NCBI GenBank assembly: GCA_023362775.1
Contig: JALMGJ010000002.1
Coordinates: forward strand, 29,293,414 to 29,357,413
DNA length: 64,000 bases
Source of the DNA: Charina bottae
Taxonomy: Eukaryota; Chordata; Lepidosauria; Squamata; Charinaidae
Reading direction: 5' to 3'
The notes under the pieces: model-generated
Seen by the model: only the letters and a program-made list of their open reading frames with translations
The model's database searches: none
What the model was told of the DNA's origin: nothing
Part shown: positions 9,530 to 25,488 of the stretch, in pieces
How the letters are laid out: every line of letters begins with the position of its first letter
How positions within the stretch are numbered: position 1 is the stretch's first letter
Program-made: the position numbers and the translations under genes

Positions 9530-9609
9530 TTATTTAAACTTGTATTACCACCCATCTCCCTTAATCGGGGGACCCTGGGCAGTTCACAATAAAAACAAGG
9601 TTAAAAATA
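9498..9609 (-). mobile_element. L2 LINE 3' end (distal part)
   Basis: Minus-strand 3' UTR end, a characteristic LINE tail (CTGCCCAGGGTCCCC...GATGGGTGGTAAT) followed by (TAAA)n. The upstream part of the same element is at 25489-25945, displaced by the Penelope array. Confidence 0.8.
9595..9609. repeat. Target-site duplication of the Penelope array, left
   Basis: acaaggttaaaaata, identical at 25474-25488. One or two bases at each end could belong to the element by microhomology. Confidence 0.85.
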
Positions 9610-9655
9610 GTCTGTGGCTTGAATCATGTCAACTGGATTTCTATTTTCTTAGTGG

Positions 9656-9690
9656 AAACGTTTCACTCCTTATCCAAGGAGCTTCTTCAG
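9656..9690 (-). ncRNA. Hammerhead-ribozyme-like motif, unit A
   Basis: On the minus strand CTGAAGA fits the core CUGANGA. It is followed by a hairpin (CTCCTT/AAGGAG with a GGAT loop), then GAAACGTTT, which gives GAAA and a GUH cleavage triplet with a two-base-pair stem III. Hammerheads are known in Penelope-like elements. Stem I is weak by eye (two inner pairs plus CUUA/UAAG outside). Confidence 0.6.
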
Positions 9691-9791
9691 TCTGAGTGAA
9701 GTTAGTAAGGGAATCCTTAAATATGTTTCTAGGCTGGCTGTGTGACCTTGCACCTGGGGCTAGGTCATGGTTATTTTTGAGATGTTTGTTT

Positions 9792-12341
9792 CTAAGTCCC
9801 TTTATCATCTAAAGGAGGATCGTTAAGATTACCCTGCTGCTGTTGAGCTTGTGAAATGGTCTTAATCTTCCTAGGCACAGAAGACAAAGCAGGAAGGAAG
9901 ATAGGGGAAAGGTTATGCCTGAGGCCCCCACCTCTATTCAAGGAAGGATTTTCCAAGTTGGCATGAATGGATTCCTTGACCCCTCTCTCAAACCACCTAT
10001 CTTCTCTGTCTAAAATGTGAACATTAATGTCCTCAAATGAGTGTCCTTTTTCCTTTAGATGAAGATAAACTGCTGACTCTGGTCCTGTGGTGTTACTTCT
10101 CCTGTGTTGGGCCATCCTCCTGTACAAAGGTTGTTTGGTTTCTCCAATGTAGAGTTCAGAGCACTCCTCACTGCACTGGATTGCATACACTACATTGCTT
10201 TCCTTGTGTTTTGGAGTTTGATCTTTGGGGTGTACAAGCCTCTGTCTCAGTGTGTTGGTGGGTTTGAAATATACAGGTATGTGGTGTTTGCCAAATATCC
10301 GTTTTATCTTTTCAGACACGCCAGCCATGTAAGGAATGACCAGGTTCTTCCGTTTACTCTGAGTCTCAGCCCTATCTGTTGCTGTTTTAGGTCTGGTAGA
10401 CTTAGATTTGGTGAAGGCCCAATTTGGATATCCACAGGCCTGCAGAGCTGTTCTCAGATGCGGCTTTTCATTCTTTTTGGAATCCATGGAGGTGGGGATG
10501 GTTTCTGCTCTGTGTGACAATGTCCTGATGACTCCTAGTTTGTGCTGCAGTGGATGGTGGGAGTCAAACATCAGGTATTGATCTGTGTGTGTGGGTTTCC
10601 TGTAGATCCCTATTTCTAGCTTGCCACCGGTCCCAATGAGGACTTCACAGTCTAGGAATGCCAGTCTGTTGTCCTTGGTGTCTTCTCTGGTGAAGCTAAT
10701 GTTGGCATCTATAGTGTTTATATGGTCCGTGAAGGCCTGTACTTCCTGGGCCTTGATTTTGACCCAGGTGTCATCCACATACCTAAACCAGTGGGTGGGC
10801 ACCGTTCCCTGGAATGTGTTGAGTGCTTTCTTCTCCACTTCTTCCATGTATAAATTGGCCACAATGGGTGACACAGGAGAACCCATAGCACAGCCGTGTT
10901 TTTGTCTGTAAAAGTCACCTCTGTATGTGAAATAAGTGGTGTTAAGACACAGGTCCAGAAGATGGCAGATCTGGTTTGGGTTGAGATGGCTTCTCCTTTC
11001 CAGGGTGCTGTCCTCTTCTAGTCTCTTCCTGACAGCGGATAGAGCATGAGTGGTGGGGATGCTGGTGAAAAGGGAGGACACATCAAAGGAGACCATAGTT
11101 TCATCTGTATCCAGTTTCAGGATCTTTGCTTTGGAAACAAATTCTTCCGAATTATGGATGTGGTGTTCAGAGTGTCCAACTAGAGGTGCTAGTATGGTAG
11201 AGAGGTGTTTGGCAATGTTGTATGTTACCGAATTGATGCTGCTGACTATGGGTCGGAGGGGTGTTCCTTCCTTGTGGATCTTAGGAAGTCCGTAGATGCA
11301 GGGGATGGCTTCTCCAGGATACAGACGGTGGTAGGTAATCCTATCGATGGAGCCATCATGTTTCAATTGTTTCAAACTGTCTATTGCCTTTTTCTTGTAA
11401 TTGTTGGTGGGGTCTCTTTTCAGTTTTTCATATGTATGGTGATCCTCCAAAAGTGAGGTAATTTTATTGTGGTAGTCTGCAGTGTTTAGAACCACTGTAC
11501 ATCTTCCTTTGTCAGCAGGTAAAATGGTGATGGTTTCATCTTTGCTGAGGGCTGTCAGGGCTCTCCTCTCTTGGACGGTAAGGTTGGGGGGAGGAGGTTG
11601 AGCACTGGACAGAGCTGCAGATATTTTAAGCCGGAGTTGTTCTGCTTCTTCAAAAGGTAGGTGGTTGTTGTGGATGGCAGATTCTGTGGCTGTAATGAGC
11701 TCCACAACCGGAACTTGCTTGGGAGTGATGGCAAAATTAAGACCTTTGGCTAGGACATCTCTCTCTGGTTGGGTAAGTTCTCTGTCTGAGAGATTTTTCA
11801 CCCACATGTTCTTTTTGTCCTCTGTGGTCCTGTTGTTGTTGTTCCTCCCAGCGGTTTCTCCAGTTCCTTGTTTCTGCTTGCTGCGAGAAAGAAGAATGTC
11901 AAATTTCTTAGTTTGCCTCTCCTTTGTCTTGTGATGCTGGGCCAGCTGTACTTTATTGCCAAGCTGAATAACTCTATCCAGGATTGGGTCAGGAAGGGTG
12001 GCTGTGAGTTCCTGGTGAAGGTTTTCAAAATTGTATTGCAGGGCATCAATGGTGAAGTGGACTTGCCTTATTCTTTCATTTAGAAGATGTCTTTGTGCCT
12101 GCTGCAGGATCTGATCTGCTCTGTGACCCTTAACTGTAGATTGCAGGCGTAGGCTTGTCGGGATGAGTCTCTGTTGTCTGCATCTGAGGTTAAAACGTAG
12201 GTGGTTTCTATAGTCTGCCACCTTTCTTGCTGTCTTCTCGAATTTCCTTACCAACTTCAGGGTTTCATCCCCAAAATGTATGGCAATATGTCTATGAAGG
12301 TTCTCAGTCATCCAGGTGGAACAGTCTGTGGCTTGAATCAT
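9792..12341 (-). CDS. Penelope-like element polyprotein, unit A (intact, 849 aa)
   Basis: A single ORF for a Penelope-like retroelement: a reverse transcriptase related to telomerase, fused to a GIY-YIG endonuclease. Residue estimates: N-terminal region 1-270 with a basic coiled-coil-like stretch; RT about 272-600 with YGLPKIHKEG (~350), the motif A equivalent FDVSSLFTS (~417), GCAMGSPVSP (~482) and the catalytic YVDD (~521); GIY-YIG domain about 715-800 (VVYAIQC...LYIGETKQ...RMAQHR). The start ATG lies within the 3' tail of the adjacent unit, so the frame crosses the tandem junction. It differs from units B-E by single residues such as KNEKP for KNEKQ. No disabling lesion seen. Confidence 0.9.
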   Translation of the reverse strand: MIQATDCSTWMTENLHRHIAIHFGDETLKLVRKFEKTARKVADYRNHLRFNLRCRQQRLIPTSLRLQSTVKGHRADQILQQAQRHLLNERIRQVHFTIDALQYNFENLHQELTATLPDPILDRVIQLGNKVQLAQHHKTKERQTKKFDILLSRSKQKQGTGETAGRNNNNRTTEDKKNMWVKNLSDRELTQPERDVLAKGLNFAITPKQVPVVELITATESAIHNNHLPFEEAEQLRLKISAALSSAQPPPPNLTVQERRALTALSKDETITILPADKGRCTVVLNTADYHNKITSLLEDHHTYEKLKRDPTNNYKKKAIDSLKQLKHDGSIDRITYHRLYPGEAIPCIYGLPKIHKEGTPLRPIVSSINSVTYNIAKHLSTILAPLVGHSEHHIHNSEEFVSKAKILKLDTDETMVSFDVSSLFTSIPTTHALSAVRKRLEEDSTLERRSHLNPNQICHLLDLCLNTTYFTYRGDFYRQKHGCAMGSPVSPIVANLYMEEVEKKALNTFQGTVPTHWFRYVDDTWVKIKAQEVQAFTDHINTIDANISFTREDTKDNRLAFLDCEVLIGTGGKLEIGIYRKPTHTDQYLMFDSHHPLQHKLGVIRTLSHRAETIPTSMDSKKNEKPHLRTALQACGYPNWAFTKSKSTRPKTATDRAETQSKRKNLVIPYMAGVSEKIKRIFGKHHIPVYFKPTNTLRQRLVHPKDQTPKHKESNVVYAIQCSEECSELYIGETKQPLYRRMAQHRRSNTTGPESAVYLHLKEKGHSFEDINVHILDREDRWFERGVKESIHANLENPSLNRGGGLRHNLSPIFLPALSSVPRKIKTISQAQQQQGNLNDPPLDDKGT

Positions 12342-12369
12342 GTCAACTGGATTTCTATTTTCTTAGTGG

Positions 12370-12404
12370 AAACGTTTCACTCCTTATCCAAGGAGCTTCT
12401 TCAG
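12370..12404 (-). ncRNA. Hammerhead-ribozyme-like motif, unit B
   Basis: Same 35-base motif on the minus strand. It lies 28 bases upstream of unit A's start codon (12341), so cleavage would place an RNA 5' end just before that ORF. Confidence 0.6.
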
Positions 12405-12505
12405 TCTGAGTGAAGTTAGTAAGGGAATCCTTAAATATGTTTCTAGGCTGGCTGTGTGACCTTGCACCTGGGGCTAGGTCATGGTTATTTTTGAGATGTT
12501 TGTTT

Positions 12506-14883
12506 CTAAGTCCCTTTATCATCTAAAGGAGGATCGTTAAGATTACCCTGCTGCTGTTGAGCTTGTGAAATGGTCTTAATCTTCCTAGGCACAGAAGACA
12601 AAGCAGGAAGGAAGATAGGGGAAAGGTTATGCCTGAGGCCCCCACCTCTATTCAAGGAAGGATTTTCCAAGTTGGCATGAATGGATTCCTTGACCCCTCT
12701 CTCAAACCACCTATCTTCTCTGTCTAAAATGTGAACATTAATGTCCTCAAATGAGTGTCCTTTTTCCTTTAGATGAAGATAAACTGCTGACTCTGGTCCT
12801 GTGGTGTTACTTCTCCTGTGTTGGGCCATCCTCCTGTACAAAGGTTGTTTGGTTTCTCCAATGTAGAGTTCAGAGCACTCCTCACTGCACTGGATTGCAT
12901 ACACTACATTGCTTTCCTTGTGTTTTGGAGTTTGATCTTTGGGGTGTACAAGCCTCTGTCTCAGTGTGTTGGTGGGTTTGAAATATACAGGTATGTGGTG
13001 TTTGCCAAATATCCGTTTTATCTTTTCAGACACGCCAGCCATGTAAGGAATGACCAGGTTCTTCCGTTTACTCTGAGTCTCAGCCCTATCTGTTGCTGTT
13101 TTAGGTCTGGTAGACTTAGATTTGGTGAAGGCCCAATTTGGATATCCACAGGCCTGCAGAGCTGTTCTCAGATGCTGCTTTTCATTCTTTTTGGAATCCA
13201 TGGAGGTGGGGATGGTTTCTGCTCTGTGTGACAATGTCCTGATGACTCCTAGTTTGTGCTGCAGTGGATGGTGGGAGTCAAACATCAGGTATTGATCTGT
13301 GTGTGTGGGTTTCCTGTAGATCCCTATTTCTAGCTTGCCACTGGTCCCAATGAGGACTTCACAGTCTAGGAATGCCAGTCTGTTGTCCTTGGTGTCTTCT
13401 CTGGTGAAGCTAATGTTGGCATCTATAGTGTTTATATGGTCCGTGAAGGCCTGTACTTCCTGGGCCTTGATTTTGACCCAGGTGTCATCCACATACCTAA
13501 ACCAGTGGGTGGGCACCGTTCCCTGGAATGTGTTGAGTGCTTTCTTCTCCACTTCTTCCATGTATAAATTGGCCACAATGGGTGACACAGGAGAACCCAT
13601 AGCACAGCCGTGTTTTTGTCTGTAAAAGTCACCTCTGTATGTGAAATAAGTGGTGTTAAGACACAGGTCCAGAAGATGGCAGATCTGGTTTGGGTTGAGA
13701 TGGCTTCTCCTTTCCAGGGTGCTGTCCTCTTCTAGTCTCTTCCTGACAGCGGATAGAGCATGAGTGGTGGGGATGCTGGTGAAAAGGGAGGACACATCAA
13801 AGGAGACCATAGTTTCATCTGTATCCAGTTTCAGGATCTTTGCTTTGGAAACAAATTCTTCCGAATTATGGATGTGGTGTTCAGAGTGTCCAACTAGAGG
13901 TGCTAGTATGGTAGAGAGGTGTTTGGCAATGTTGTATGTTACCGAATTGATGCTGCTGACTATGGGTCGGAGGGGTGTTCCTTCCTTGTGGATCTTAGGA
14001 AGTCCGTAGATGCAGGGGATGGCTTCTCCAGGATACAGACGGTGGTAGGTAATCCTATCGATGGAGCCATCATGTTTCAATTGTTTCAAACTGTCTATTG
14101 CCTTTTTCTTGTAATTGTTGGTGGGGTCTCTTTTCAGTTTTTCATATGTATGGTGATCCTCCAAAAGTGAGGTAATTTTATTGTGGTAGTCTGCAGTGTT
14201 TAGAACCACTGTACATCTTCCTTTGTCAGCAGGTAAAATGGTGATGGTTTCATCTTTGCTGAGGGCTGTCAGGGCTCTCCTCTCTTGGACGGTAAGGTTG
14301 GGGGGAGGAGGTTGAGCACTGGACAGAGCTGCAGATATTTTAAGCCGGAGTTGTTCTGCTTCTTCAAAAGGTAGGTGGTTGTTGTGGATGGCAGATTCTG
14401 TGGCTGTAATGAGCTCCACAACCGGAACTTGCTTGGGAGTGATGGCAAAATTAAGACCTTTGGCTAGGACATCTCTCTCTGGTTGGGTAAGTTCTCTGTC
14501 TGAGAGATTTTTCACCCACATGTTCTTTTTGTCCTCTGTGGTCCTGTTGTTGTTGTTCCTCCCAGCAGTTTCTCCAGTTCCTTGTTTCTGCTTGCTGCGA
14601 GAAAGAAGAATGTCAAATTTCTTAGTTTGCCTCTCCTTTGTCTTGTGATGCTGGGCCAGCTGTACTTTATTGCCAAGCTGAATAACTCTATCCAGGATTG
14701 GGTCAGGAAGGGTGGCTGTGAGTTCCTGGTGAAGGTTTTCAAAATTGTATTGCAGGGCATCAATGGTGAAGTGGACTTGCCTTATTCTTTCATTTAGAAG
14801 ATGTCTTTGTGCCTGCTGCAGGATCTGATCTGCTCTGTGACCCTTAACTGTAGATTGCAGGCGTAGGCTTGTCGGGATGAGTC
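12506..14883 (-). pseudogene. Penelope-like polyprotein, unit B (5'-truncated)
   Basis: The frame is open from the head-to-head junction at 14883 to the stop at 12506 and corresponds to residues from about 58 to 849 of the full protein, but it lacks the normal start codon. The first internal ATG gives 671 aa from 14521 and still includes the whole RT and GIY-YIG domains. A GTSGK variant replaces GTGGK. All catalytic motifs are intact. The truncation, not mutation, disables it. Confidence 0.85.
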
Positions 14884-16618
14884 CATTTTACCTGCTGACA
14901 AAGGAAGATGTACAGTGGTTCTAAACACTGCAGACTACCACAATAAAATTACCTCACTTTTGGAGGATCACCATACATATGAAAAACTGAAAAGAGACCC
15001 CACCAACAATTACAAGAAAAAGGCAATAGACAGTTTGAAACAATTGAAACATGATGGCTCCATCGATAGGATTACCTACCACCGTCTGTATCCTGGAGAA
15101 GCCATCCCCTGCATCTACGGACTTCCTAAGATCCACAAGGAAGGAACACCCCTCCGACCCATAGTCAGCAGCATCAATTCGGTAACATACAACATTGCCA
15201 AACACCTCTCTACCATACTAGCACCTCTAGTTGGACACTCTGAACACCACATCCATAATTCGGAAGAATTTGTTTCCAAAGCAAAGATCCTGAAACTGGA
15301 TACAGATGAAACTATGGTCTCCTTTGATGTGTCCTCCCTTTTCACCAGCATCCCCACCACTCATGCTCTATCCGCTGTCAGGAAGAGACTAGAAGAGGAC
15401 AGCACCCTGGAAAGGAGAAGCCATCTCAACCCAAACCAGATCTGCCATCTTCTGGACCTGTGTCTTAACACCACTTATTTCACATACAGAGGTGACTTTT
15501 ACAGACAAAAACACGGCTGTGCTATGGGTTCTCCTGTGTCACCCATTGTGGCCAATTTATACATGGAAGAAGTGGAGAAGAAAGCACTCAACACATTCCA
15601 GGGAACGGTGCCCACCCACTGGTTTAGGTATGTGGATGACACCTGGGTCAAAATCAAGGCCCAGGAAGTACAGGCCTTCACGGACCATATAAACACTATA
15701 GATGCCAACATTAGCTTCACCAGAGAAGACACCAAGGACAACAGACTGGCATTCCTAGACTGTGAAGTCCTCATTGGGACCGGTGGCAAGCTAGAAATAG
15801 GGATCTACAGGAAACCCACACACACAGATCAATACCTGATGTTTGACTCCCACCATCCACTGCAGCACAAACTAGGAGTCATCAGGACATTGTCACACAG
15901 AGCAGAAACCATCCCCACCTCCATGGATTCCAAAAAGAATGAAAAGCAGCATCTGAGAACAGCTCTGCAGGCCTGTGGATATCCAAATTGGGCCTTCACC
16001 AAATCTAAGTCTACCAGACCTAAAACAGCAACAGATAGGGCTGAGACTCAGAGTAAACGGAAGAACCTGGTCATTCCTTACATGGCTGGCGTGTCTGAAA
16101 AGATAAAACGGATATTTGGCAAACACCACATACCTGTATATTTCAAACCCACCAACACACTGAGACAGAGGCTTGTACACCCCAAAGATCAAACTCCAAA
16201 ACACAAGGAAAGCAATGTAGTGTATGCAATCCAGTGCAGTGAGGAGTGCTCTGAACTCTACATTGGAGAAACCAAACAACCTTTGTACAGGAGGATGGCC
16301 CAACACAGGAGAAGTAACACCACAGGACCAGAGTCAGCAGTTTATCTTCATCTAAAGGAAAAAGGACACTCATTTGAGGACATTAATGTTCACATTTTAG
16401 ACAGAGAAGATAGGTGGTTTGAGAGAGGGGTCAAGGAATCCATTCATGCCAACTTGGAAAATCCTTCCTTGAATAGAGGTGGGGGCCTCAGGCATAACCT
16501 TTCCCCTATCTTCCTTCCTGCTTTGTCTTCTGTGCCTAGGAAGATTAAGACCATTTCACAAGCTCAACAGCAGCAGGGTAATCTTAACGATCCTCCTTTA
16601 GATGATAAAGGGACTTAG
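14884..16618 (+). pseudogene. Penelope-like polyprotein, unit C (5'-truncated)
   Basis: Starts abruptly at the codon for residue ~272 (ILPADKG) at the head-to-head junction. It runs open through RT (YGLPKIHKEG, GCAMGSPVSP, YVDD) and GIY-YIG to the stop at 16618. The first ATG is 14915 (567 aa). The N-terminal 270 residues are missing. Its tail supplies the hammerhead motif and the start codon of unit D. Confidence 0.85.
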
Positions 16619-16719
16619 AAACAAACATCTCAAAAATAACCATGACCTAGCCCCAGGTGCAAGGTCACACAGCCAGCCTAGAAACATATTTAAGGATTCC
16701 CTTACTAACTTCACTCAGA

Positions 16720-16754
16720 CTGAAGAAGCTCCTTGGATAAGGAGTGAAACGTTT
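16720..16754 (+). ncRNA. Hammerhead-ribozyme-like motif, unit C/D junction
   Basis: CTGAAGA core, CTCCTT-GGAT-AAGGAG hairpin, GAAACGTTT. The predicted cleavage after 16754 lies 28 bases before the unit D ATG (16783). The next motif ends at 19468, exactly 2714 bases on. Confidence 0.6.
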
Positions 16755-16782
16755 CCACTAAGAAAATAGAAATCCAGTTGAC

Positions 16783-19332
16783 ATGATTCAAGCCACAGAC
16801 TGTTCCACCTGGATGACTGAGAACCTTCATAGACATATTGCCATACATTTTGGGGATGAAACCCTGAAGTTGGTAAGGAAATTCGAGAAGACAGCAAGAA
16901 AGGTGGCAGACTATAGAAACCACCTACGTTTTAACCTCAGATGCAGACAACAGAGACTCATCCCGACAAGCCTACGCCTGCAATCTACAGTTAAGGGTCA
17001 CAGAGCAGATCAGATCCTGCAGCAGGCACAAAGACATCTTCTAAATGAAAGAATAAGGCAAGTCCACTTCACCATTGATGCCCTGCAATACAATTTTGAA
17101 AACCTTCACCAGGAACTCACAGCCACCCTTCCTGACCCAATCCTGGATAGAGTTATTCAGCTTGGCAATAAAGTACAGCTGGCCCAGCATCACAAGACAA
17201 AGGAGAGGCAAACTAAGAAATTTGACATTCTTCTTTCTCGCAGCAAGCAGAAACAAGGAACTGGAGAAACCGCTGGGAGGAACAACAACAACAGGACCAC
17301 AGAGGACAAAAAGAACATGTGGGTGAAAAATCTCTCAGACAGAGAACTTACCCAACCAGAGAGAGATGTCCTAGCCAAAGGTCTTAATTTTGCCATCACT
17401 CCCAAGCAAGTTCCGGTTGTGGAGCTCATTACAGCCACAGAATCTGCCATCCACAACAACCACCTACCTTTTGAAGAAGCAGAACAACTCCGGCTTAAAA
17501 TATCTGCAGCTCTGTCCAGTGCTCAACCTCCTCCCCCCAACCTTACCGTCCAAGAGAGGAGAGCCCTGACAGCCCTCAGCAAAGATGAAACCATCACCAT
17601 TTTACCTGCTGACAAAGGAAGATGTACAGTGGTTCTAAACACTGCAGACTACCACAATAAAATTACCTCACTTTTGGAGGATCACCATACATATGAAAAA
17701 CTGAAAAGAGACCCCACCAACAATTACAAGAAAAAGGCAATAGACAGTTTGAAACAATTGAAACATGATGGCTCCATCGATAGGATTACCTACCACCGTC
17801 TGTATCCTGGAGAAGCCATCCCCTGCATCTACGGACTTCCTAAGATCCACAAGGAAGGAACACCCCTCCGACCCATAGTCAGCAGCATCAATTCGGTAAC
17901 ATACAACATTGCCAAACACCTCTCTACCATACTAGCACCTCTAGTTGGACACTCTGAACACCACATCCATAATTCGGAAGAATTTGTTTCCAAAGCAAAG
18001 ATCCTGAAACTGGATACAGATGAAACTATGGTCTCCTTTGATGTGTCCTCCCTTTTCACCAGCATCCCCACCACTCATGCTCTATCCGCTGTCAGGAAGA
18101 GACTAGAAGAGGACAGCACCCTGGAAAGGAGAAGCCATCTCAACCCAAACCAGATCTGCCATCTTCTGGACCTGTGTCTTAACACCACTTATTTCACATA
18201 CAGAGGTGACTTTTACAGACAAAAACACGGCTGTGCTATGGGTTCTCCTGTGTCACCCATTGTGGCCAATTTATACATGGAAGAAGTGGAGAAGAAAGCA
18301 CTCAACACATTCCAGGGAACGGTGCCCACCCACTGGTTTAGGTATGTGGATGACACCTGGGTCAAAATCAAGGCCCAGGAAGTACAGGCCTTCACGGACC
18401 ATATAAACACTATAGATGCCAACATTAGCTTCACCAGAGAAGACACCAAGGACAACAGACTGGCATTCCTAGACTGTGAAGTCCTCATTGGGACCGGTGG
18501 CAAGCTAGAAATAGGGATCTACAGGAAACCCACACACACAGATCAATACCTGATGTTTGACTCCCACCATCCACTGCAGCACAAACTAGGAGTCATCAGG
18601 ACATTGTCACACAGAGCAGAAACCATCCCCACCTCCATGGATTCCAAAAAGAATGAAAAGCAGCATCTGAGAACAGCTCTGCAGGCCTGTGGATATCCAA
18701 ATTGGGCCTTCACCAAATCTAAGTCTACCAGACCTAAAACAGCAACAGATAGGGCTGAGACTCAGAGTAAACGGAAGAACCTGGTCATTCCTTACATGGC
18801 TGGCGTGTCTGAAAAGATAAAACGGATATTTGGCAAACACCACATACCTGTATATTTCAAACCCACCAACACACTGAGACAGAGGCTTGTACACCCCAAA
18901 GATCAAACTCCAAAACACAAGGAAAGCAATGTAGTGTATGCAATCCAGTGCAGTGAGGAGTGCTCTGAACTCTACATTGGAGAAACCAAACAACCTTTGT
19001 ACAGGAGGATGGCCCAACACAGGAGAAGTAACACCACAGGACCAGAGTCAGCAGTTTATCTTCATCTAAAGGAAAAAGGACACTCATTTGAGGACATTAA
19101 TGTTCACATTTTAGACAGAGAAGATAGGTGGTTTGAGAGAGGGGTCAAGGAATCCATTCATGCCAACTTGGAAAATCCTTCCTTGAATAGAGGTGGGGGC
19201 CTCAGGCATAACCTTTCCCCTATCTTCCTTCCTGCTTTGTCTTCTGTGCCTAGGAAGATTAAGACCATTTCACAAGCTCAACAGCAGCAGGGTAATCTTA
19301 ACGATCCTCCTTTAGATGATAAAGGGACTTAG
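16783..19332 (+). CDS. Penelope-like element polyprotein, unit D (intact, 849 aa)
   Basis: Same full-length RT plus GIY-YIG endonuclease protein as unit A. The start ATG is at 16783, inside the last bases of unit C, and 28 bases after the predicted hammerhead cleavage point. RT catalytic YVDD is encoded at about 18343, GCAMGSP at about 18229, and the GIY-YIG segment at about 18930-19020. The stop is followed by a short 3' region and the next hammerhead motif. By family it would nick target DNA with GIY-YIG and copy its RNA there. No disabling lesion is visible, so this is the best candidate for a competent copy in the window. Confidence 0.9.
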   Translation: MIQATDCSTWMTENLHRHIAIHFGDETLKLVRKFEKTARKVADYRNHLRFNLRCRQQRLIPTSLRLQSTVKGHRADQILQQAQRHLLNERIRQVHFTIDALQYNFENLHQELTATLPDPILDRVIQLGNKVQLAQHHKTKERQTKKFDILLSRSKQKQGTGETAGRNNNNRTTEDKKNMWVKNLSDRELTQPERDVLAKGLNFAITPKQVPVVELITATESAIHNNHLPFEEAEQLRLKISAALSSAQPPPPNLTVQERRALTALSKDETITILPADKGRCTVVLNTADYHNKITSLLEDHHTYEKLKRDPTNNYKKKAIDSLKQLKHDGSIDRITYHRLYPGEAIPCIYGLPKIHKEGTPLRPIVSSINSVTYNIAKHLSTILAPLVGHSEHHIHNSEEFVSKAKILKLDTDETMVSFDVSSLFTSIPTTHALSAVRKRLEEDSTLERRSHLNPNQICHLLDLCLNTTYFTYRGDFYRQKHGCAMGSPVSPIVANLYMEEVEKKALNTFQGTVPTHWFRYVDDTWVKIKAQEVQAFTDHINTIDANISFTREDTKDNRLAFLDCEVLIGTGGKLEIGIYRKPTHTDQYLMFDSHHPLQHKLGVIRTLSHRAETIPTSMDSKKNEKQHLRTALQACGYPNWAFTKSKSTRPKTATDRAETQSKRKNLVIPYMAGVSEKIKRIFGKHHIPVYFKPTNTLRQRLVHPKDQTPKHKESNVVYAIQCSEECSELYIGETKQPLYRRMAQHRRSNTTGPESAVYLHLKEKGHSFEDINVHILDREDRWFERGVKESIHANLENPSLNRGGGLRHNLSPIFLPALSSVPRKIKTISQAQQQQGNLNDPPLDDKGT

Positions 19333-19433
19333 AAACAAACATCTCAAAAATAACCATGACCTAGCCCCAGGTGCAAGGTCACACAGCCAGCCTAGAAACA
19401 TATTTAAGGATTCCCTTACTAACTTCACTCAGA

Positions 19434-19468
19434 CTGAAGAAGCTCCTTGGATAAGGAGTGAAACGTTT
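19434..19468 (+). ncRNA. Hammerhead-ribozyme-like motif, unit D/E junction
   Basis: Identical to 16720-16754; 28 bases upstream of the unit E start codon at 19497. Confidence 0.6.
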
Positions 19469-21812
19469 CCACTAAGAAAATAGAAATCCAGTTGACATGA
19501 TTCAAGCCACAGACTGTTCCACCTGGATGACTGAGAACCTTCATAGACATATTGCCATACATTTTGGGGATGAAACCCTGAAGTTGGTAAGGAAATTCGA
19601 GAAGACAGCAAGAAAGGTGGCAGACTATAGAAACCACCTACGTTTTAACCTCAGATGCAGACAACAGAGACTCATCCCGACAAGCCTACGCCTGCAATCT
19701 ACAGTTAAGGGTCACAGAGCAGATCAGATCCTGCAGCAGGCACAAAGACATCTTCTAAATGAAAGAATAAGGCAAGTCCACTTCACCATTGATGCCCTGC
19801 AATACAATTTTGAAAACCTTCACCAGGAACTCACAGCCACCCTTCCTGACCCAATCCTGGATAGAGTTATTCAGCTTGGCAATAAAGTACAGCTGGCCCA
19901 GCATCACAAGACAAAGGAGAGGCAAACTAAGAAATTTGACATTCTTCTTTCTCGCAGCAAGCAGAAACAAGGAACTGGAGAAACCGCTGGGAGGAACAAC
20001 AACAACAGGACCACAGAGGACAAAAAGAACATGTGGGTGAAAAATCTCTCAGACAGAGAACTTACCCAACCAGAGAGAGATGTCCTAGCCAAAGGTCTTA
20101 ATTTTGCCATCACTCCCAAGCAAGTTCCGGTTGTGGAGCTCATTACAGCCACAGAATCTGCCATCCACAACAACCACCTACCTTTTGAAGAAGCAGAACA
20201 ACTCCGGCTTAAAATATCTGCAGCTCTGTCCAGTGCTCAACCTCCTCCCCCCAACCTTACCGTCCAAGAGAGGAGAGCCCTGACAGCCCTCAGCAAAGAT
20301 GAAACCATCACCATTTTACCTGCTGACAAAGGAAGATGTACAGTGGTTCTAAACACTGCAGACTACCACAATAAAATTACCTCACTTTTGGAGGATCACC
20401 ATACATATGAAAAACTGAAAAGAGACCCCACCAACAATTACAAGAAAAAGGCAATAGACAGTTTGAAACAATTGAAACATGATGGCTCCATCGATAGGAT
20501 TACCTACCACCGTCTGTATCCTGGAGAAGCCATCCCCTGCATCTACGGACTTCCTAAGATCCACAAGGAAGGAACACCCCTCCGACCCATAGTCAGCAGC
20601 ATCAATTCGGTAACATACAACATTGCCAAACACCTCTCTACCATACTAGCACCTCTAGTTGGACACTCTGAACACCACATCCATAATTCGGAAGAATTTG
20701 TTTCCAAAGCAAAGATCCTGAAACTGGATACAGATGAAACTATGGTCTCCTTTGATGTGTCCTCCCTTTTCACCAGCATCCCCACCACTCATGCTCTATC
20801 CGCTGTCAGGAAGAGACTAGAAGAGGACAGCACCCTGGAAAGGAGAAGCCATCTCAACCCAAACCAGATCTGCCATCTTCTGGACCTGTGTCTTAACACC
20901 ACTTATTTCACATACAGAGGTGACTTTTACAGACAAAAACACGGCTGTGCTATGGGTTCTCCTGTGTCACCCATTGTGGCCAATTTATACATGGAAGAAG
21001 TGGAGAAGAAAGCACTCAACACATTCCAGGGAACGGTGCCCACCCACTGGTTTAGGTATGTGGATGACACCTGGGTCAAAATCAAGGCCCAGGAAGTACA
21101 GGCCTTCACGGACCATATAAACACTATAGATGCCAACATTAGCTTCACCAGAGAAGACACCAAGGACAACAGACTGGCATTCCTAGACTGTGAAGTCCTC
21201 ATTGGGACCGGTGGCAAGCTAGAAATAGGGATCTACAGGAAACCCACACACACAGATCAATACCTGATGTTTGACTCCCACCATCCACTGCAGCACAAAC
21301 TAGGAGTCATCAGGACATTGTCACACAGAGCAGAAACCATCCCCACCTCCATGGATTCCAAAAAGAATGAAAAGCAGCATCTGAGAACAGCTCTGCAGGC
21401 CTGTGGATATCCAAATTGGGCCTTCACCAAATCTAAGTCTACCAGACCTAAAACAGCAACAGATAGGGCTGAGACTCAGAGTAAACGGAAGAACCTGGTC
21501 ATTCCTTACATGGCTGGCGTGTCTGAAAAGATAAAACGGATATTTGGCAAACACCACATACCTGTATATTTCAAACCCACCAACACACTGAGACAGAGGC
21601 TTGTACACCCCAAAGATCAAACTCCAAAACACAAGGAAAGCAATGTAGTGTATGCAATCCAGTGCAGTGAGGAGTGCTCTGAACTCTACATTGGAGAAAC
21701 CAAACAACCTTTGTACAGGAGGATGGCCCAACACAGGAGAAGTAACACCACAGGACCAGAGTCAGCAGTTTATCTTCATCTAAAGGAAAAAGGACACTCA
21801 TTTGAGGACATT

Positions 21813-24800
21813 TGTTGTTGTTGTTGTTCAGTCGTTCAGTCGTGTCCGACTCTTCGTGACCTCATGGACCATAGCACGCCAGGCCTTCCTGTCCTCCACT
21901 GTCTCTCGGAGTTTACTCAAATTCATGTTCATTACATTGGTGATGCTATCTAACCATCTCATCCTCTGCCGTCCCCTTCTCCTTTTGCCCTCAGTCTTTC
22001 CCAGCATCAGGGTCTTTTCCAGTGAGTCCTCTCTTCTCATTAGGTGGCCAAAGTATTTGAGCTTCAGCTTCAGCATCTGTCCTTCCAATGAGCAGTCAGG
22101 GTTGATTTCCTTTAGGATTGACTGGTTTGACCTCCTTGCAGTCCAAGGGACTCTCAAGAGTCTTCTCCAGCACCACAGCTCGAAAGCATCAATTCTTCGG
22201 CGCTCAGCCTTCCTTATGGTCCAACTCTCACAGCCATACATTGCTACTGGAAAAACCATAGCTTTAACTATACGGACCTTTGTCGGCAAGGTGATGTCTC
22301 TGCTTTTTAATATGCTGTCTAGGTTTGCCATAGCTTTCCTTCCAAGGAGCAAGCGTCTTTTAATTTCATGGCTGCAGTCACCGTCTGCGGTGATCTTGGA
22401 GCCCAAGAAAATAAAATCTGTCACTGCTTCCATTTCTTCCCCTTCTATTTGCCAGGAAGTGATGGGACCAGATGCCATGATCTGGGTTTTTTTAATGTTG
22501 AGTTTCAAGCCAGCTTTTGCACTCTCCTCTTTCACCCTCATCAAGAGGCTCTTTAGTTCCTCTTCACTTTCTGCCAATAGGGTGGTATCGTCTGCATATC
22601 TGAGGTTGTTGATATTTTTCCCGGCAATCTTAACTCCGGCTTGTGATTCATCCAGCCCGGCATTTCTCATGATGTACTCTGCATATAAGTTAAATAAGCA
22701 GGGTGATAATATACAGCCTTGTCGTACTCCTTTCCCAATTTTGAACCAGTCGGTTGTTCCATGTCCGGTTCTAACTGTTGCTTCTTGACCCACATACAGG
22801 TTTCTCAGGAGACAGGTAAGGTGGTCTGGTACTCCCATCTCTTTAAGAATTTGCCACAGTTTGTTGTGATCCACACAATCAAAGGCTTTAGCGTAGTCAA
22901 TGAAGCAGAAGTAGATGTTTTTCTGGAACTCTCTTGCTTTTTCCATGATCCAGCGAATGTTGGCAATCTGATCTCTAGTTCCTCTGCCTCTTCGAAACCC
23001 AGCTTGCACTTCTGGTAGTTCTCGGTTCACATGCTGCTGAAGCCTAGCTTGTAGGATTTTGAGCATAACCTTGCTGGCATGTGAAATGAGCGCAATTGTA
23101 CGGTAGTTTGAACATTCTTTGGCATTGCCTTTCTTTGGAATTGGAACGTAAACTGACCTTTTCCAATCCTGTGGCCACTGTTGAGTTTTCCAAATTTGTT
23201 GGCATATTGAGTGCAGCACTTTAACAGCATCATCTTTTAGGATTTTAAATAGCTCAGCTGGGATACTGTCTTCTCCGCTAGCTTTGTTGTTAGTAATGCT
23301 TCCTAAGGCCCACTTGACTTCACTCTCTAGGATGTCCGGCTCAAGGTCAGTGACCACACCATCGTATTTATCAGGGATATTAAGATCTTTCTTGTATAGT
23401 TCTTCTGTGTATTCTTGCCACCTCTTCTTAATCTCTTCTGCTTCTGTTAGGTCCCTGCCTTTTTTGTCCTTTATCATGCCCATCTTTGCACAAAACGTTC
23501 CCTTGATATCTCCGATTTTCTTGAAGAGATCTCTAGTCTTCCCCATTCTATTGTTTTCCTCGATTTCTTTGCATTGTTCATTTAAGAAGGCCTTCTTATC
23601 TCTCCTTGCTATTCTCTGGAATTCTGCATTCAGTTGTTTATATCTTTCCCTTTCTCCCTTGCCTTTTGCTTCCCTTCTTTCCTCAGCTATTTGTAAAGCC
23701 TCATCAGTCAGCCACTTTGCTTTCTTGCATTTCTTTTTCTTTGGGATGGTTTTAGTTGCTGCCTCCTGTACAATGTTACGAACCTCCATCCATAGTTCTT
23801 CAGGCACTCTGTCTACCAGATCTAATCCTTTAAATCTATTCCTCACTTCCACTGTATATTCATAAGGGATATGATTTAGGTCATACCTGATTGGTCTAGT
23901 GGTTTTCTCTACATTCTTCAATTTAAGCCTAAATTTTGCAATAAGAAGCTCATGATCTGAGCCACAGTCAGCTCCAGGTCTTGTTTTTGCTGATTGTATA
24001 GAGCTTCTCCATCTTTGGCTGCAAAGTATATAATCAATCTGATTTCGGTATTGACCATCTGGTGATGTCCATGTGTAGAGTCGTCTCTTGTGTTGTTGGA
24101 AAAGAGTGTTTGCTATGACCAGCGTGTTCTCTTGACAAAACTCTATTAGCCTTTGCCCTGCTTCATTTTGTACTCCGAGGCCGAACTTGCCTGTTATTCC
24201 GGTTATTTTTTGACTTCCTACCTTAGCATTCCAGTCCCCTATGATGAAAAGGACATCTTTTTTTGGTGTTAGTTCTAGAAGGTGTTGTAGGTCTTCATAG
24301 AACCGGTCAACTTCAGCTTCTTTGGCATCAGTGGTTGGGGCATAGACTTGGATCACTGTGATGTTGAATGGTTTGCCTTGGATTCGAACTGAAAGCATTC
24401 TGTCGTTTTTGAGGTTGTACCCCAGTACTGCCTTTCCCACTCTTTTATTGACTATGAGAGCTACTCCATTTCTTCTAAGGGATTCTTGCCCACAGTAGTA
24501 TATATAATGGTCTCCTGAATTAAATTCGCCCATTCCTGTCCATTTTAGTTCGCTGATTCCCAATATGTCGATGTTCAATCTTGTCATCTCATGTTTGACC
24601 ACATCCAGCTTACCTTGATTCATAGTTCTTACATTCCAGGTTCCTATGCAATATTGTTCTTTACAGCATCGGACTTTCCTTCCACTTCCAGACACATCCA
24701 CAACTGAGCGTCCTTTCGGCTTTGGCCCAGCCGTTTCACACTTTCTGGAGCTACTCGGAATTGCCCTCCGCTCTTCCCCAGTAGCATTTTGGACACCTTC

Positions 24801-25014
24801 CGACCTGAGGGGCTCATCTTCCGGCGTCATATCTTTTAGCCTTTTGATACTGTCCATGGGTTTTCTTGGCAAGGATACTGGAGTGGTTTGCCATTTCCTC
24901 CTCCAGTGGACCACGTTTTGTCAGAACTCTCCGTCATGACCTGTTCTTCTTGACCTGACTTCATTGAGTTACGCAAGCCCCTTCGCCACGACAAGGCAGT
25001 GATCCATGAAGGGG
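21813..25014 (-). mobile_element. BovB (RTE) LINE, near full length, young
   Basis: 3.2 kb on the minus strand, flanked by the 11-bp direct repeat ttgaggacatt (21802-21812 and 25015-25025). The 3' end has the BovB hallmark CGACTGAACGACTGAAC followed by (AAC)n; the 5' end starts near CCTTGTCGTGGCG. Length agrees with full-length BovB. Confidence 0.93.
21828..24914 (-). CDS. BovB endonuclease-reverse transcriptase (1028 aa, intact)
   Basis: An uninterrupted ORF for the RTE-clade protein that nicks target DNA and primes reverse transcription of its own RNA. The APE-like endonuclease occupies about residues 90-330: GTWNVRTMN, SELKWTGMG, YAPTTD, IGDWNAKVG and SDHELLIAK with the catalytic D/H. The RT lies at about 510-790: ASGEDSIPAEL, FIDYAKAFDCVDH, GVRQGCILSP and the catalytic YADDT. 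The C-terminal region contains CESWTIRKAERRRIDAFE and ends at VTKSRTRLND. The ATG at 24914 is the first in frame; a shorter frame in the 5' part overlaps but is not needed. It lies antisense inside a Penelope unit. Confidence 0.92.
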   Translation of the reverse strand: MVHWRRKWQTTPVSLPRKPMDSIKRLKDMTPEDEPLRSEGVQNATGEERRAIPSSSRKCETAGPKPKGRSVVDVSGSGRKVRCCKEQYCIGTWNVRTMNQGKLDVVKHEMTRLNIDILGISELKWTGMGEFNSGDHYIYYCGQESLRRNGVALIVNKRVGKAVLGYNLKNDRMLSVRIQGKPFNITVIQVYAPTTDAKEAEVDRFYEDLQHLLELTPKKDVLFIIGDWNAKVGSQKITGITGKFGLGVQNEAGQRLIEFCQENTLVIANTLFQQHKRRLYTWTSPDGQYRNQIDYILCSQRWRSSIQSAKTRPGADCGSDHELLIAKFRLKLKNVEKTTRPIRYDLNHIPYEYTVEVRNRFKGLDLVDRVPEELWMEVRNIVQEAATKTIPKKKKCKKAKWLTDEALQIAEERREAKGKGERERYKQLNAEFQRIARRDKKAFLNEQCKEIEENNRMGKTRDLFKKIGDIKGTFCAKMGMIKDKKGRDLTEAEEIKKRWQEYTEELYKKDLNIPDKYDGVVTDLEPDILESEVKWALGSITNNKASGEDSIPAELFKILKDDAVKVLHSICQQIWKTQQWPQDWKRSVYVPIPKKGNAKECSNYRTIALISHASKVMLKILQARLQQHVNRELPEVQAGFRRGRGTRDQIANIRWIMEKAREFQKNIYFCFIDYAKAFDCVDHNKLWQILKEMGVPDHLTCLLRNLYVGQEATVRTGHGTTDWFKIGKGVRQGCILSPCLFNLYAEYIMRNAGLDESQAGVKIAGKNINNLRYADDTTLLAESEEELKSLLMRVKEESAKAGLKLNIKKTQIMASGPITSWQIEGEEMEAVTDFIFLGSKITADGDCSHEIKRRLLLGRKAMANLDSILKSRDITLPTKVRIVKAMVFPVAMYGCESWTIRKAERRRIDAFELWCWRRLLRVPWTARRSNQSILKEINPDCSLEGQMLKLKLKYFGHLMRREDSLEKTLMLGKTEGKRRRGRQRMRWLDSITNVMNMNLSKLRETVEDRKAWRAMVHEVTKSRTRLND

Positions 25015-25360
25015 TTGAGGACATTAATGTTCACATTTTAGACAGAGAAGATAGGTGGTTTGAGAGAGGGGTCAAGGAATCCATTCATGCCAACTTGGAA
25101 AATCCTTCCTTGAATAGAGGTGGGGGCCTCAGGCATAACCTTTCCCCTATCTTCCTTCCTGCTTTGTCTTCTGTGCCTAGGAAGATTAAGACCATTTCAC
25201 AAGCTCAACAGCAGCAGGGTAATCTTAACGATCCTCCTTTAGATGATAAAGGGACTTAGAAACAAACATCTCAAAAATAACCATGACCTAGCCCCAGGTG
25301 CAAGGTCACACAGCCAGCCTAGAAACATATTTAAGGATTCCCTTACTAACTTCACTCAGA

Positions 25361-25395
25361 CTGAAGAAGCTCCTTGGATAAGGAGTGAAACGTTT
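25361..25395 (+). ncRNA. Hammerhead-ribozyme-like motif, unit E 3' end
   Basis: Fifth copy of the 35-base motif, 79 bases before the right border of the array. Confidence 0.55.
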
Positions 25396-25473
25396 CCACT
25401 AAGAAAATAGAAATCCAGTTGACATGATTCAAGCCACAGACTGTTCCACCTGGATGACTGAGAACCTTCATAG

Positions 25474-25488
25474 ACAAGGTTAAAAATA
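25474..25488. repeat. Target-site duplication of the Penelope array, right
   Basis: acaaggttaaaaata, identical to 9595-9609. Confidence 0.85.

Follow-up and report, generated by a model that had tools for sequence, protein, structure and literature searches.

The 64,000-nt stretch of the Charina bottae genome analysed here (the window) carries at 9610–25476 a composite insertion of Penelope-like element (PLE) units, 1.94 of them pointing leftward and 2.71 rightward, with a period of 2714 bp. PLE DNA accounts for 12,654 of the 15,867 bp, and the remainder is mainly a nested BovB-like element. Unit positions are numbered such that 2714 is the 3′ end without a tail. The array is laid out as follows:

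9595–9609, forward strand: left copy of the target duplication, ACAAGGTTAAAAATA
9610–12323, reverse strand: left arm, outer full PLE unit, 3′ end outward, without tail
9792–12362, reverse strand: open frame of 856 codons, stop to stop, encoding the same protein as 16762–19332
12324–14883, reverse strand: left arm, inner 5′-truncated unit (unit positions 155–2714)
14883–14884: head-to-head junction, 1-nt overlap, not palindromic
14884–16800, forward strand: right arm, inner 5′-truncated unit (unit positions ~797–2714)
16762–19332, forward strand: open frame of 856 codons, stop to stop, encoding a reverse transcriptase (RVT_1) and a GIY-YIG endonuclease
16801–19514, forward strand: right arm, full PLE unit
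19515–25441, forward strand: right arm, outer PLE unit, split by the BovB-like element (PLE parts 19515–21812 and 25026–25441)
25442–25476, forward strand: 35-nt 3′ tail at the right border
25474–25488, forward strand: right copy of the target duplication, ACAAGGTTAAAAATA, whose first 3 nt also fit the tail

The arms match the unit at 99.9–100 % across kilobases, which excludes chance likeness, and only three substitutions, each of them in the left arm, set the window units apart across 12.65 kb; this scarcity of differences indicates that the insertion is young. An earlier note on this DNA had described five near-identical units, spaced at exactly 2714 bp, in a 15.9-kb block. The layout and the near-identity hold, as does the period, although the block is not all PLE DNA and one spacing is 5927 bp on account of the BovB-like element in the third right-hand unit, which that note overlooked. 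Two units to the left and three to the right of 14883/14884 are borne out, and the 5′ truncations that it placed at residues ~58 and ~272 fit unit positions 155 and 797. The sequence ACAAGGTTAAAAATA was found on either strand of the window solely at 9595–9609 and 25474–25488; since three of its 15 bases also match the element tail, the duplication is 12–15 bp rather than the 15 bp first given. Both outer borders are indeed element 3′ ends, but they differ in a way that had gone unnoticed: the right one carries the PLE tail and the left one does not.

The 856-codon frame matches RVT_1 at residues 362–551 (E value 6.2e-11) and GIY-YIG with 23.1 bits against a cut-off of 22.6 (E value 9.4e-5). 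This pair of domains is the hallmark of canonical PLEs. The element displays the traits of the Penelope/Poseidon type, namely a single reverse transcriptase (RT) ORF, a C-terminal GIY-YIG domain, tandem units (pseudo-long terminal repeats, pLTRs) and a 35-nt tail at the right border only. Among the matches listed, the nearest are vertebrate proteins without a name, for example one of Xenopus tropicalis with 68 % identity over 96 %; a PDB search returned no relative (best E value 0.4). Upstream of the frame, each of three motifs is represented by one example of a repeated motif with a putative role:

16688–16695, forward strand: TATA-like motif ATTTAAGG
16711–16715, forward strand: initiator-like TCACT
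16720–16751, forward strand: hammerhead-like core CTGAAGA...GAAACG

Within the unit, the TATA-like motif lies at 2602, TCACT at 2625–2629 and the two parts of the hammerhead-like core at 2634 and 2660. The hammerhead-like core, with its stem II, was recognised by eye; the fold z-score is −0.37, and the Rfam hammerhead families gave no match at E values up to 1 or 10.

To place the window among its relatives, the 1.8-Gb genome (278 contigs, labelled C1, C201 and so on) was searched with a 60-bp piece of the unit 3′ end, which returned 2528 and 2502 exact matches (5030), against 0 for the reversed control. Our sample comprised the first 100 places of the 5030 as listed; they lie within the first 38.3 Mb of contig C1 and fall into 52 clusters, 36 of them with units in the − then + order. 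Fifty were examined, two of these only at their ends and junction, with C1:35047122 and C1:35938126 left out. Forty-three are two-arm insertions, head-to-head with their 3′ ends outward, six have one arm and one is complex (L042); more than one unit in an arm was seen in five of the 50. Addition of the by-catch loci (L037, the first, and L046b), the window and an array on C201, which was chosen from the top genome matches and not by random sampling, gave 47 two-arm insertions and 54 insertions in all. BLAST ends overshoot by a few bases, notably at L012, L021 and L051.

Two regularities emerge from this set. Of the 47 two-arm insertions, all but L035, where one end is missing, can be read at both ends, and each of these 46 has exactly one tail (35–40 nt); four of the six one-arm insertions carry it too. 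The arms of these 46 thus start at two different fixed 3′ sites, in agreement with the earlier proposal of priming from both target strands. Direct duplications of 11–16 bp flank 51 of the 54 insertions (exceptions L035, L032 and the unreadable L042); among the 49 lengths tallied, 26 are 13 bp, 20 are 14–15 bp, and 11, 12 and 16 bp occur once each. Together with the two-arm layout of 43 of the 50 clusters, these duplications uphold the claim that the window holds one insertion and not five. Among the one-arm loci, L046+47 (C1:33044686–33051135) has 2.4 units with tail and duplication, showing that multi-unit copies arise without a second arm; L039 and L053 have one arm with an internal deletion.

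The two arms of an insertion also resemble each other more than they resemble other insertions. The variant comparison covered 31 loci outside L051–L060, of which 25 young ones were used (L017, L019, L037, L037b, L039 and L046b were dropped as older or deleted). Arms differ at 0.67 sites per kb within an insertion versus 2.74 per kb between insertions, and none of 5000 permutations gave a value as low as that within insertions (18 loci, each with 150 bp or more of comparable sequence). At six loci with unequal arms, the difference between arms is 0.21 per kb.

The largest array, on C201 (181097197–181137626; L001–L008, L049, L050 and L061–L063), spans 40,430 bp within a 13-bp duplication, ACTTTAGGATTGG, and has 8.4 units in its left arm, without tail, and 6.5 in its right arm, with tail. 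With T denoting a unit with 1693T, A one with 2102T and B one with 2102T and 1521A, the left arm reads, from the outside inward, "... T T B A. T" and the right arm ". T T T B A.". At a shift of one unit, six of the seven overlapping units agree, which is equalled by eight of 420 reorderings of the right arm. The variant 1693T has eight occurrences in the genome, six of them in this array (three per arm), and 2102T has 27, four of them in this array (two per arm), while 1521A is recurrent (83 places). The mirrored order of rare variants argues that both arms were copied from one heterogeneous row of units and not from a one-unit circle. No source array for C201 was found; at C211:3.67 Mb, a neighbouring pair of 2102T units is without 1521A. 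On the evidence of the assembled sequences, a common template source for both arms is established for the sister loci. Units also diverge within other arrays: unit site 228 in L025 and site 1695 in L046+47 each depart from the reference in two units of the array, which also carry different bases from one another; repeated reading of a damaged RNA base might be behind this.

We next consider where the arms end. The test was made on the 41 two-arm insertions in which neither arm exceeds one unit; the multi-unit insertions (the window, L025, L027+28, the C1:36.24 and C1:37.14 arrays and C201) stand outside it. In 25 of the 41, the two 5′ ends lie no more than 25 nt apart, where shuffled partners give an expectation of 3.75 (maximum 11; 0 of 20000 shuffles reach the observed value). 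The excess persists when nine very short insertions are removed (16/32, expected 1.74), and 15/31 remain when a repeated palindrome is counted once. The truncation of the two arms is therefore not independent, and independent truncation is ruled out for arms within one unit. An arm-length rank correlation of 0.93 (nine large-offset loci) was not used, seven later loci including several very unequal ones (L053, L055, L057 and L058).

The near-equal pairs fall into two classes. Nine short ones end at about unit 2611–2646 and have loops of less than 7 nt in six cases (five of 1 nt), whereas the 16 longer ones have hairpin-like junctions with loops of 7–36 nt and none shorter (Fisher 0.0005). Twenty of the 82 arm 5′ ends cluster at unit 2611–2646, at the initiator-like TCACT behind the TATA-like motif, and since ends cluster there, we read the short class as cDNAs that would have run off the 5′ end of the RNA; the longer class may represent hairpin fold-back of one cDNA. 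Either fold-back or run-off thus probably contributes to the 25 near-coincident ends. In the remaining 16 loci, as well as in the window, L025 and L027+28, the junction stem never exceeds 10 nt. Non-palindromic junctions without inserted bases overlap by at least 2 nt in 8/14 cases (P 0.0004), and short inserts that repeat neighbouring letters occur at L022, L026, L035, L037 and L057. Polymerase theta leaves templated inserts of such type.

Taken together, these data suggest that the window array is probably the product of a single retrotransposition, in which both target strands primed synthesis on multi-unit RNA and the two cDNAs were joined end to end. Priming from both strands is evident from the borders and is backed by published biochemistry. 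In this reaction, the PLE endonuclease would cut both strands of an AT-rich target ~13 nt apart, and reverse transcription would be primed by each free 3′ end, from the tail site in one case and from 35–40 nt upstream of it, leaving no tail, in the other. Both would use the same kind of template, an RNA read through several tandem units of an existing array. The left cDNA would run for 1.94 units and the right for 2.71 before stopping, whereupon their 3′ ends would be joined head-to-head with a 1-nt overlap, the second cDNA standing in for a separate second-strand step. Polymerase theta, of which the templated inserts at sister junctions are reminiscent, is a putative joining enzyme. The unit structure, the borders, the asymmetry of the tail and the duplication can be read from the DNA as assembled, and so can the sharing of variants at sister loci and the mirrored order of C201; from these we infer the order of the cuts, the simultaneous copying, the use of one RNA molecule and not of two sister transcripts, and the joining pathway. 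A stricter form is possible, and we hold it tentatively: a paired reaction in which two RTs, one per cut strand, start 35–40 nt apart on one multimeric RNA, and the antisense cDNAs are joined with no separate second-strand synthesis, such that one event could lay ~15 units (40 kb).

Fold-back, in which the 3′ end of one cDNA folds back and copies itself to yield the second arm, would account for the near-coincident ends of the 25 pairs and for the hairpin-like junctions of the 16 pairs lying away from the RNA-start cluster, and self-priming has been proposed for Adineta vaga, there on an antisense template, in the portion of that report available (PMC3846280). As the sole mechanism, it is ruled out by the one-sided tail and the direct duplications, neither of which it can produce alone. 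In addition, the arm without tail reaches further 5′ in 14/31 loci and the arm with tail in 12/31, hence neither arm is always the template, and the window junction has a stem of at most 6 nt and lies between unequal arms. We regard fold-back as an unlikely origin for the window; together with two-strand initiation, it is likely to be a second route by which some members of the family arose. Rolling-circle reverse transcription, in which a hammerhead ribozyme supplies a one-unit circular RNA that is copied repeatedly into tandem units, is consistent with the exact 2714-bp period and with the near-identity of units within several arrays; in L027+28, for instance, eight diagnostic variants recur in every unit covering them, a pattern that fits either template source. 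The window alone cannot judge this model, its units being too alike. For C201, a one-unit circle is ruled out by the aperiodic order of differing units in its arms; Rfam gave no hammerhead match, and insertion by the Anolis element in vitro was independent of ribozyme cleavage in the part of the study available (PMC11167929). We therefore consider this route rather improbable.

Growth after insertion, i.e. a small insertion later enlarged by unequal exchange or inverted duplication, appears very improbable. Unequal exchange can alter the number of tandem units, and a change of this type could underlie the discordant unit in C201, but the outer ends differ in their tails, the duplication is intact around arrays of 12–40 kb, small insertions are equally regular in their two-arm layout, and the mirrored order in opposite arms would require correlated exchanges. 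Five separate insertions, or an artefact of assembly, are scarcely credible: near-identical repeats are indeed difficult to assemble, yet the internal unit borders lack duplications, the period is exact, a single outer duplication encloses the array, and the same layout recurs in dozens of insertions small enough for any assembly to resolve.

Several observations nevertheless weigh against a single two-strand event as we propose it. The number and order of the near-identical units are as given by the assembled contigs. In the window, no private variant is common to the two arms, all three substitutions being in the left one, so that the case for a common template rests there on analogy and on the state that the arms share at five sites variable elsewhere. 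In C201, one unit is discordant between the arms, and their starts are offset by one unit. Shared variants could also be imitated by gene conversion between arms, and at sister loci with near-equal arms one arm may have been copied by fold-back. One palindromic junction occurs at four places (L054 and L056, i.e. C1:36.02 and 36.78 Mb; C46:5442822; C245:5276069), and L054 and L056 have different flanks and tails on opposite sides but the same junction, suggesting that ready-made palindromes, or a hot spot, also contribute; the palindromic junctions of L018, L029 and L010 each have one genome occurrence. Finally, a strict one-tail rule needs an added cause, because in vitro the strands showed no difference in start site in the available part of the Anolis study (PMC11167929).

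The nested element, which we take to be BovB-like, lies as follows:

21813–25014, reverse strand: BovB/RTE-like non-LTR element, 3.2 kb, inside the outer right-arm PLE unit

It landed after the PLE array had formed and is bounded by an 11-bp duplication, TTGAGGACATT (21802–21812 and 25015–25025). Its uninterrupted frame of ~1030 codons (21828–24920) carries PF03372 and PF14529 (endonuclease/exonuclease/phosphatase) and RVT_1 domains, and among the matches listed its protein is closest to that of Podarcis muralis (85 % over 97 %) and Varanus komodoensis (84 %). Similar proteins appear under bacterial and Babesia names at 85–86 % identity (P0133, P0134, P0153 and P0164), records that probably represent host contamination.

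In mammalian L1 twin priming, both target strands prime on the element RNA, and an inverted head-to-head junction with microhomology results. There, the second primer anneals inside the element, whereas both strands start at element 3′ sites in the PLE described here. A close parallel is PAc of Anolis carolinensis (Poseidon/Penelope clade), which, in the part of the report available, likewise has RT and GIY-YIG domains, tandem units, a tail, two start sites and AT-rich targets, a likeness in described features (PMC11167929). As described there, the purified Anolis protein cuts and extends both strands, with two adjacent start sites defining the tail, and completion of the insertion after two-strand cleavage is termed unvalidated. 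The present family differs from that account in its paired matched arms, its long head-to-head arrays and its one tail per insertion. The Pen1–Pen4 elements of A. vaga, as far as the available text goes (PMC3846280), are similar in that head-to-head is the commonest inverted form, the tail is optional on one inverted pLTR, and direct duplications and palindromic junctions occur; they are individual copies read as self-priming on an antisense template, whereas here 50 clusters include non-palindromic junctions and multi-unit arms. Retrozymes and circular RNAs with hammerhead ribozymes (HHR) likewise yield tandem units from an RNA intermediate, according to the available parts of those reports (PMC4918200, PMC7229834, PMC7761336); our PLE differs in having no HHR family match and, in C201, an aperiodic unit order that does not correspond to a monomer-circle template.

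The literature already describes tandem and head-to-head PLE copies, their tails, proposals of self-priming and the extension of both strands in vitro; the coupling of the two arms and the size of the arrays look new. In the open PubMed Central literature, which excludes subscription papers and so provides weak evidence of absence, we found no report of matched arm ends, mirrored unit order or such array size per insertion. With thousands of young, mostly paired insertions, the C. bottae genome makes a model of PLE insertion testable, and the one-tail rule, the 13-bp stagger, the shared variants and the mirrored unit order each constrain such a model. That a single retroelement event can add 40 kb of repeats, arranged head-to-head within a 13-bp duplication, matters for both annotation and assembly.

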